Assembly: GCA_944324245.1 (NCBI GenBank)
Contig: CALUVO010000071.1
Location: 1-37,552 of the forward strand
Direction of reading: 5' to 3'
Origin: Candidatus Gastranaerophilales bacterium
Lineage (GTDB): Bacteria; Cyanobacteriota; Vampirovibrionia; Gastranaerophilales; Gastranaerophilaceae
DNA length: 37,552 nucleotides
The translations under genes were made by a program, and so were the position numbers. Shown piece by piece: positions 904-2,713 of the stretch. Every line of letters starts with the position of its first letter. Positions within the stretch are counted from its first letter, which is position 1. Below the pieces are notes generated by a model. That model was not told where the DNA came from. It worked only from the letters and a program-made list of their open reading frames with translations, and made no database searches.

Positions 904-1203
904 ATGATTTTAAAAGAATTTTCTGATTTTTTTTTTTTTTACGAACAAAAGCCATCCGTTACATTGCTGTATGCGTGGTTAAAAATAAAAATAGAATCAC
1001 CTGCAAAAAGCAATGTGGACAGAATTTTGCAAAAAGAAATATACATTGCAAAAAACAGAGCCGGCAATTTTCTTTTTATCGGCAAATCCCCGTCAGGAAG
1101 GAATTTGATGGAGAGTTTGTACAACTTTGCATTGAGTTTTGAACAGCAAAAAATGGCACGCTGGCTCCACGATAAAAAAGCAAATGATTTCAAAAATTAT
1201 TAA
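904..1203 (+). CDS. Small hypothetical protein with a T14 tract near its start
   Basis: I do not recognise this 99-residue, lysine-rich protein and see no signal peptide or clear domain. Support for it being a gene: the codon use matches the neighbours, and a plausible rho-independent terminator follows 18 bases after the stop. Against it: no ribosome binding site precedes the ATG at 904. Codons 9-12 are a run of Phe encoded by 14 consecutive T residues (927-940). Such a homopolymer could slip during replication and switch the frame. An internal ATG at 1108 has a very good AGGAAGGA site five bases upstream and would give a 31-residue peptide. The gene's 3' end already carries one TTTTGAACA box (1137-1145) of the kind clustered downstream. 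A frame on the opposite strand over 939-1193 is judged a shadow. Confidence 0.4.
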   Translation: MILKEFSDFFFFYEQKPSVTLLYAWLKIKIESPAKSNVDRILQKEIYIAKNRAGNFLFIGKSPSGRNLMESLYNFALSFEQQKMARWLHDKKANDFKNY

Positions 1204-1220
1204 GTAAAGTTAAAAATACG

Positions 1221-1260
1221 GCATGGAAAAGGTTTTCGGAAATACCCATGCTCTTTTTTT
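1221..1260 (+). terminator. Rho-independent terminator after the small hypothetical gene
   Basis: GCATGG (1221-1226) pairs with CCATGC (1246-1251). A smaller inner hairpin GAAAA-GG-TTTTC lies in the loop. TCTTTTTTT follows at 1252-1260. The stem is short, so strength is uncertain. Confidence 0.55.
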
Positions 1261-1292
1261 GTATTATCATGAAAAATTTCTTTTTTTCTTCC

Positions 1293-1545
1293 TGTAGAAA
1301 ACTTGTTCAAAACTCATTTTTTGCTGTTCAAAAACTGTTTAAAAAGTACGGGTTTTGAACAGGAAAAAATTTTTTCAAAAAATTTTCTACAACTTTGAAC
1401 AGGTTTTATACAGAAAATTTACAAAGTTTTGAACAGGCTTTGTGCTTTATATTATTTGATTTATAATAGTTTTATACAGTTTTTTGTTTCTTTATTATTA
1501 TTATTATTTTATATATTTATATATATTAATATTATAAATAAGAAC
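1293..1545. other. Candidate chromosomal replication origin (DnaA-box-like cluster plus AT-rich tract)
   Basis: Eleven 9-mers fitting TTTTNNACA, or one base from it, lie within 186 bp. On the plus strand they start at 1353, 1383, 1393 (CTTTGAACA), 1404, 1427 and 1470. On the minus strand they occupy 1293-1301, 1304-1312, 1325-1333 and 1336-1344. Most are TTTTGAACA, TTTTATACA or TTTTCTACA, and several are followed by G or GG. The standard DnaA box is TTWTNCACA; these differ only at position 6. An extreme AT tract (1481-1545, TTATTATTA and TATATATTAATATT) follows, suited to be the unwinding element, and dnaN starts at 1583. Cyanobacterial origins have been placed next to dnaN, which fits. Strand-composition skew and DnaA binding were not tested. 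Confidence 0.6.
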
Positions 1546-1582: not shown

Positions 1583-2713
1583 ATGGCAAACATGGAATTT
1601 ACGATAGAAAAAGAAACTCTTCTTACCAATTTAAAAATAGTAGAAAAAACTACAGTAACAAGAGGTATTCAGCCTGTTCTTTCCAATATTTTAATTGATG
1701 CTGCTCCTGACAACTATATTACTTTCAGCGCAACAGACCTTGATATAAATATTGTGTCAAAAACTGTTGCTTCTGTAAAAACTCCCGGAAAAATTACTCT
1801 GCCTGCAAAAAAACTTTCTGAAATTGTATCAAAATTGAGCAATAAGCCTATAGTTTTTTCTCTTAATTCTGAAACTAATATTGTAAATATAATCTGCGGG
1901 AATTCTAAGTTTGAACTTATCGGTATTTCTGCAGATGAATTTCCTGAAACTATAAACGAAGAAGCACTACAGTCTGTTCAGCCCGTAGAAATAGACCTGA
2001 ATCCTTTTATTAAATGTATAAAATATACGGCAAATTCTGCTGCCAGTTATGAGAGCAGAAATATTATAAGCGGTGTTTTGTGCACAATTTCAAAAGATGA
2101 ACTTGAAATGGCAGCAACAGACGGCAACAGGCTGACAATGATTGTTGAAAAAACAGCAAATGCAAATACCGACGAAATAAACTGTGTTGTACCGTCTAAA
2201 ACTTTACAGGAGTTTTTAAGAATAGCTTCCTTTGTAAAAGATGAAAAGCTTAGTTTGTATATAGAAAAGTCAAAAATTATATTTAAGACTGCTTCTATGC
2301 TGATGTCATCAAGATTGTTGGAAGGTGAATATCCTCCTTATAAACAGCTTATACCAAAATCCTGCGAAAAAAATGCTTTGTTAAACAGAGAAGATATGAT
2401 ATCAGCTCTTGAGAGAGTTGCTGTTATGGTTAACGAAAGAACAAATATTGTTAAATTTATATTTGCTGAAAATACGCTTTTCTTAAAAGCAGATACTCCA
2501 GATGCAGGTCTTGGTGAAGATTCTATACCGGCACAATATACTGATGAAGAACTTACAATAGCTTTTAATTACAAATATGTGCTGGATTCTCTGAAAATTA
2601 TGGAATCACCAAATGTCAAAATAGGTCTGGGCGGCAGTCTTTCCGCTACACTTTTCAAACCGGACAGCGGTGACGATTATCTCAGCCTGATAATGCCTAT
2701 TCAGTTGAGATAG
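1583..2713 (+). CDS. dnaN: DNA polymerase III subunit beta (sliding clamp)
   Basis: This is the ring-shaped clamp that tethers DNA polymerase III to DNA. The 376 residues match the family length (about 365-380) and divide into three repeated clamp domains. Recognisable blocks are the N-terminal FTIEKETLLTNLKIVEKT, PVLSNILIDA, the central ATDGNRLTMI, and the C-terminal LSLIMPIQLR, the typical beta-clamp ending (PMRL/PIQLR). The ATG at 1583 is preceded by GGGAGAT with about eight bases of spacing. A second ATG at 1592 is possible but less well placed. There is no dnaA, recF or gyrB beside it, so the gene is uncoupled from the usual dnaA-dnaN-recF cluster. Instead it sits directly downstream of the putative origin. 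A 7-bp inverted repeat (2702-2708 / 2723-2729) spans the stop codon without a T-run. Confidence 0.97.
   Translation: MANMEFTIEKETLLTNLKIVEKTTVTRGIQPVLSNILIDAAPDNYITFSATDLDINIVSKTVASVKTPGKITLPAKKLSEIVSKLSNKPIVFSLNSETNIVNIICGNSKFELIGISADEFPETINEEALQSVQPVEIDLNPFIKCIKYTANSAASYESRNIISGVLCTISKDELEMAATDGNRLTMIVEKTANANTDEINCVVPSKTLQEFLRIASFVKDEKLSLYIEKSKIIFKTASMLMSSRLLEGEYPPYKQLIPKSCEKNALLNREDMISALERVAVMVNERTNIVKFIFAENTLFLKADTPDAGLGEDSIPAQYTDEELTIAFNYKYVLDSLKIMESPNVKIGLGGSLSATLFKPDSGDDYLSLIMPIQLR

Follow-up and report, generated by a model that had tools for sequence, protein, structure and literature searches.

The region beside dnaN in this genome raises the question of whether the chromosome is replicated from here and, if it is, how an initiator could use sites that depart from the DnaA box, one of the best-conserved regulatory words of bacteria. 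The window, the whole stretch of 37,552 nucleotides that was analysed, is contig C71 of a Candidatus Gastranaerophilales MAG (genome G000; 2.04 Mb in 116 contigs), and its nearest named relatives by dnaN are likewise Candidatus Gastranaerophilales. These are common gut bacteria that belong to the class Vampirovibrionia, a gut lineage of Cyanobacteriota without photosynthesis.

The box array beside dnaN

The first-pass annotation had described eleven 9-mers, exact or one base off and in both orientations, within 1293–1478, one more at 1137–1145, and an AT tract followed by dnaN. All of these were recovered, and the features of the region are as follows:

904–1203, plus strand: conserved 99-aa ORF, function unassigned, on the opposite side of the array from dnaN
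1137–1145, plus strand: distal DnaA-box-like site TTTTGAACA, within ORF 904–1203
1293–1344, minus strand: left arm, four exact boxes, TTTTCTACA (1293–1301), TTTTGAACA (1304–1312), TTTTGAACA (1325–1333) and TTTTAAACA (1336–1344); position and orientation conserved in the genus
1353–1478, plus strand: right arm, boxes starting at 1353 (TTTTGAACA), 1383 (TTTTCTACA), 1393 (CTTTGAACA, one mismatch), 1404 (TTTTATACA), 1427 (TTTTGAACA) and 1470 (TTTTATACA); position and orientation conserved in the genus
1479–1552, no strand: AT-rich tract, presumed DNA-unwinding element from its sequence; relatives have an equivalent tract
1492–1508, plus strand: DnaA-trio-like run TTATTATTATTATTATT, 3'-AAT repeats on the opposite strand, directly past the last box
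1583–2713, plus strand: dnaN, DNA polymerase III sliding clamp, 376 aa (Pfam beta-clamp domains PF00712, PF02767 and PF02768)

Nine sites within 1293–1478 (186 nt) match TTTTNWACA exactly (four minus-strand and five plus-strand sites), and the one-mismatch positions 1393 and 1372 (the latter on both strands) bring the total to eleven; the distal site at 1137 is also exact. The left-arm box starts are spaced 11, 21 and 11 nt apart. The departure from the standard TTWTNCACA had been placed at position 6, with A or T for C, and this is borne out: the standard box does not occur at 1100–1600 of the window, and positions 1–4 and 7–9 (TTWT..ACA) are kept. The region accordingly holds the cluster of DnaA-box 9-mers expected of an oriC, provided that the altered word counts as a DnaA box.

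The interval between the 99-aa ORF and dnaN (1204–1580, 377 nt) contains nine TTTTNWACA sites, against a mean of 0.47 and a maximum of 4 in 5000 first-order shuffles of the same interval, and the second-densest 190-nt bin of the window has two. A search of the whole G000 genome for three same-strand boxes with short gaps gave five matches, four of them in this array. The genome-wide count of TTTTGAACA that the first-pass annotation had proposed is 140, compared with 95 for the reversed control pattern, which means that the signal is the cluster and not the word itself.

Conservation of the array in relatives

The 480 nt upstream of dnaN in 74 Gastranaerophilales loci contain 483 TTTTNWACA sites where shuffles predict 52, and in a motif-free screen of all 9-mers in the relatives' upstream regions, TTTTCTACA, TTTTGAACA and TTTTATACA were among those with the strongest enrichment. 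Boxes with C at position 6 (C6) show no enrichment in the order, and TTTTNCACA occurs only 10 times upstream of dnaN in the 74 loci. Opposed arms (−+ or +−+) are present in 58 of the 74. Boxes on one strand are most often 11 nt apart (87 pairs), with 21–23 and 43–45 nt as the next most frequent distances. The −+ layout and the 11-nt step also occur, with C6 boxes, in other Cyanobacteriota; the arrangement is therefore ancient, and it is the word inside it that changed.

Positions 5 and 6 of the boxes are coupled in these 74 loci (L070–L149): GA occurs 154 times, CT 139, AT 114 and AA 48, and CA and GT only 1 and 7 times, respectively. This pattern may reflect two box subtypes of differing affinity.

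At dnaN, no array can be recognised in families f11 and f14, and the one in f12 is only weak. In these families (L202–L208, L250–L284) TTWTNNACA arrays at dnaN are weak or absent, and in f12 and f14 the DnaA residue that corresponds to E. coli 433 (below) is Thr or Gln. The boxes or the place of the origin may have changed again in all three.

The unwinding side of the array also has counterparts in relatives, which often carry CTTTATTACTATTATTATT after the last box, read from the complementary strand as 3'-AAT GAT AAT AAT. At least four consecutive (T/C)TA units occur on the same strand as in the window in 27 of 74 upstream regions, on the opposite strand in 3 of 74, and in 2 of 647 control tiles. 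The window thus has, with the run at 1492, the presumed AT-rich unwinding element with DnaA-trio-like repeats that should neighbour an oriC, and in relatives such runs are strand-specific.

Location of the origin

The origin had been proposed to lie at dnaN and not at dnaA, with a minimum of cumulative GC skew at the site. Since the window's own MAG is too fragmented, skew was read in four relatives with long contigs. The minimum lies at 262,798 in G035, whose array starts at 262,851 (400 kb examined); at 278,247 in G021, with dnaN at 279,206 (323 kb); at 56,861 in G006, with dnaN at 59,725 (270 kb); and at 47,514 in G022, where dnaN starts at 42,033 (140 kb). The minima are therefore about 0.1–5 kb from the array, two of them 2.9 and 5.5 kb from dnaN, which agrees with the proposed location. 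In every stretch tested in relatives the array is the densest cluster, and clusters of TTWTNCACA never exceed two.

An origin at dnaA was considered and rejected. In G000, dnaA is on contig C113, apart from dnaN, and has no box cluster upstream; the corresponding regions of 36 relatives (family) contain 8 sites in 14.5 kb, never two together, so that the dense rival cluster that would have counted against the dnaN location was not found. In G021, dnaA is at 67 kb of the same contig as dnaN, and the skew has no switch there.

Because the array exceeds chance, is conserved, has opposed and phased arms and strand-specific trios, and lies near the skew minima of relatives, we consider it very probable that 1137–1552 is the chromosomal oriC, with a class-wide altered box that is most likely read by a DnaA in which Asp433 has become Lys. 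DnaA would bind the two opposed arms of TTTT[G/C/A][A/T]ACA 9-mers, oligomerise along the helically phased sites toward the trio and AT tract (1479–1552) and open this tract beside dnaN, after which the helicase would be loaded, as expected from established knowledge of DnaA.

DnaA residue 433

An altered box preference was predicted to have left its mark in DnaA domain IV, and a change was found there. The domain reads F-E-K-K-H-T-T in G000, G-G-R-D-H-T-T in E. coli and B. subtilis and F-G-R-D-H-T-T in M. tuberculosis, and in an ungapped match to the last of these K431 of G000 aligns with E. coli D433. The strings used as reference for E. coli and B. subtilis were entered by hand; alignments to PDB entries 1j1v, 3pvp and 8btg agree on the residue correspondence. 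The Asp433-His434-Thr435 contact residues are thus K-H-T here, in a protein that has the domain III/IV fold and helix-turn-helix of an initiator (PF08299, E 7.9e-25; AlphaFold model vs 8btg_B, TM 0.82). In the AlphaFold model (mean pLDDT 91.5) the Lys (K309 in model numbering) directly precedes the recognition helix, H310–326. The structure of domain IV–DNA contacts was reportedly the subject of a paper by Fujikawa in 2003. D433 is a base-contact residue of DnaA (PMC7561715), helix 434–451 reads the TnCACA half of the box (PMC5742627), and the Asp-His dyad has been described as highly conserved (PMC5043019); the literature searched does not state which base D433 contacts.

The rest of the order Gastranaerophilales has mostly GGRKHTT. 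Among 80 members of the class, residue 433 is K in 61, T in 11, R in 5, Q in 3 and D in none, whereas all 29 other Cyanobacteriota have D. Box position 6 follows the same division: upstream of dnaN, boxes with A or T there (W6) and C6 boxes number 238 and 15 in the class, and 5 and 68 in other Cyanobacteriota. The Fisher p of 8e-49 for this contrast is uncorrected for shared ancestry and overstates independence, because the D433/C6 change maps to one ancestor; in essence it occurred once, at the root of the class, and so has few independent replicates. The sites, their architecture and conservation, the skew minima in relatives and the joint change of base and residue are direct observations, whereas DnaA binding, unwinding and the causal role of residue 433 are inferred.

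Relative to TTTTCCACA, the ancestral box of cyanobacteria, position 6 is changed, with coupled choices at position 5, and we think it likely that loss of Asp at 433, just before the recognition helix, is the reason. On chemical grounds, Asp is expected to act as acceptor for a hydrogen bond donated by the C6 amino group, a role that Lys could not fill; Lys would instead suit acceptor atoms such as A or T offers.

The box could instead have truly changed through other alterations of domain IV. In the DnaA of this genus the loop is indeed shorter by one residue and Tyr occupies the position of H439, and these, or neighbouring changes, might have altered the specificity without residue 433. However, the rest of the order and the other class families with A or T at position 6 keep the full-length GGRKHTT loop, M. 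tuberculosis has a short loop and retains Asp, and most other Cyanobacteriota combine Tyr439 with C6 boxes. We regard this explanation as unlikely, although it is the strongest of the alternatives, and prefer residue 433 as the cause.

A more general code, in which Asp at 433 specifies C at position 6, Lys A or T, and Arg tends toward G or A, so that Vampirovibrionia rewrote the initiator and all origin boxes together, is a tentative proposal that we think more apt to fail than to hold. Family f15, which has Arg433, has six G6 boxes in three genomes where 0.28 are expected, a hint of a second or further shift; extension of f15 to one further genome gave no matches. Against a strict correspondence between residue 433 and the base stands one f8 genome, in which Arg433 goes with T6 boxes.

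Alternative readings of the array

The sites might bind some other regulator, for example of dnaN transcription, with the origin elsewhere. The array abuts dnaN and its last box (1470) is near a TATAAT at 1462, so regulation of dnaN by the binder is plausible. Nonetheless, in G023 (C4; L272, 1875–2037) an intact array is found about 5 kb upstream of dnaN and separated from it by several genes, a position that speaks against a function confined to the dnaN promoter; in the genus of G023, origin and dnaN appear to be separated. The skew minima at the array, the match of its opposed arms, phasing and trios to cyanobacterial origins, and the lack of a competing cluster at dnaA also make a regulator without origin function very improbable.

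Mutation pressure toward AT could by itself have turned C6 into A or T and left weak, degenerate boxes and a DnaA of unchanged specificity. The intergenic DNA of Gastranaerophilales is indeed very AT-rich (the upstream regions are ~26% GC). However, G145, which is outside the class and has D433, keeps 12 C6 boxes at 20% GC upstream, and class families f8 and f9 have T6 or A6 boxes at 44% GC, so base composition is not the explanation; in addition, the boxes retain C8 and their other positions, the order shows no enrichment of C6 boxes, and the contact residue changed along with the box. We give this possibility very little weight. Chance together with AT composition is ruled out by the shuffles, the 9-mer screen, the excess upstream of dnaN in the order, and G145, f8 and f9.

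Comparison with known origins

The reading of 1137–1552 as an oriC with an altered box agrees in most respects with what is known of the phylum. The oriC of Synechococcus elongatus, Anabaena and Cyanothece likewise adjoins dnaN, with dnaA often elsewhere; its boxes, of the TTTTNNACA type, form opposed arms with 11-nt spacing, and it has an AT tract. It differs in its TTTTCCACA box and D433 DnaA, where the window has A or T at position 6 and Lys433 (PMC4674748). For Cyanobacteriota it is thus ordinary that the origin adjoins dnaN and is remote from dnaA; the altered box is not reported in the literature searched. In the basal unwinding system (BUS) of Bacillus subtilis, too, 3'-(G/A)AT repeats on one strand come after the boxes (PMC10721633), and the G000 DnaA model is most similar to 8btg; unlike in BUS, no GC-rich spacer is seen in the window, and the G000 trios are all 3'-AAT, with one GAT in relatives. 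Thermotoga maritima resembles G000 in having a DnaA loop without the Asp (FNRSHPVV) and a non-standard box, but its box is a 12-mer of unrelated sequence, whereas G000 keeps the 9-mer frame (PMC10316083). Epsilonproteobacterial origins (Helicobacter TCATTCACN) similarly combine a lineage-specific box with domain IV changes, but their consensus keeps C at position 6, and the Asp-His dyad is described as highly conserved (PMC5043019). Our literature search, which covered few subscription journals, found nothing joining Gastranaerophilales with a replication origin or Melainabacteria with a DnaA box, and no paper that prints the altered box words.

How an essential initiator and many essential sites could change jointly is not easily explained. 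In this case a whole class changed its box yet kept the origin layout, and since the outgroups still carry the old pair and there is a single candidate residue, co-evolution of the two is testable by one point mutation. The findings also suggest that in Vampirovibrionia, Gastranaerophilales included, origins would be overlooked or wrongly annotated by origin finders based on TTWTNCACA.

Flanking repeats, the distal box and the 99-aa ORF

Two intergenic repeats flank the array and dnaN, a 41-nt sequence at 556–596 and 2764–2804 (80% identical) and an inverted 20-nt piece at 627–646 and 2893–2912 (90%); an Rfam search of the window gave no match, to these or elsewhere.

The 99-aa ORF is present in 62 of the 82 Gastranaerophilales loci searched and is possibly an origin-linked gene. 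It was considered as a known replication protein, and this was rejected: it has no Pfam or NCBIfam match, and its predicted fold (a modest-confidence model) has no match in the PDB. A T-run at 925–943 encodes FFFFY where relatives have LKxNE or similar, and by this comparison it appears to be a homopolymer change or an assembly error.

The DNA of the distal site within this ORF (AGTTTTGAACARCAAAAAATG) is identical in 20 of 20 genus orthologues, synonymous sites included, and because nearby synonymous sites vary, this suggests that selection acts on the DNA word at 1137 inside a coding gene. A 19-nt perfect inverted repeat, TTTTGAACAGCAAAAAATG, at 1137–1155 and 1315–1333 links this coding-embedded box to the left arm, with identity running 10 nt beyond the 9-mer.
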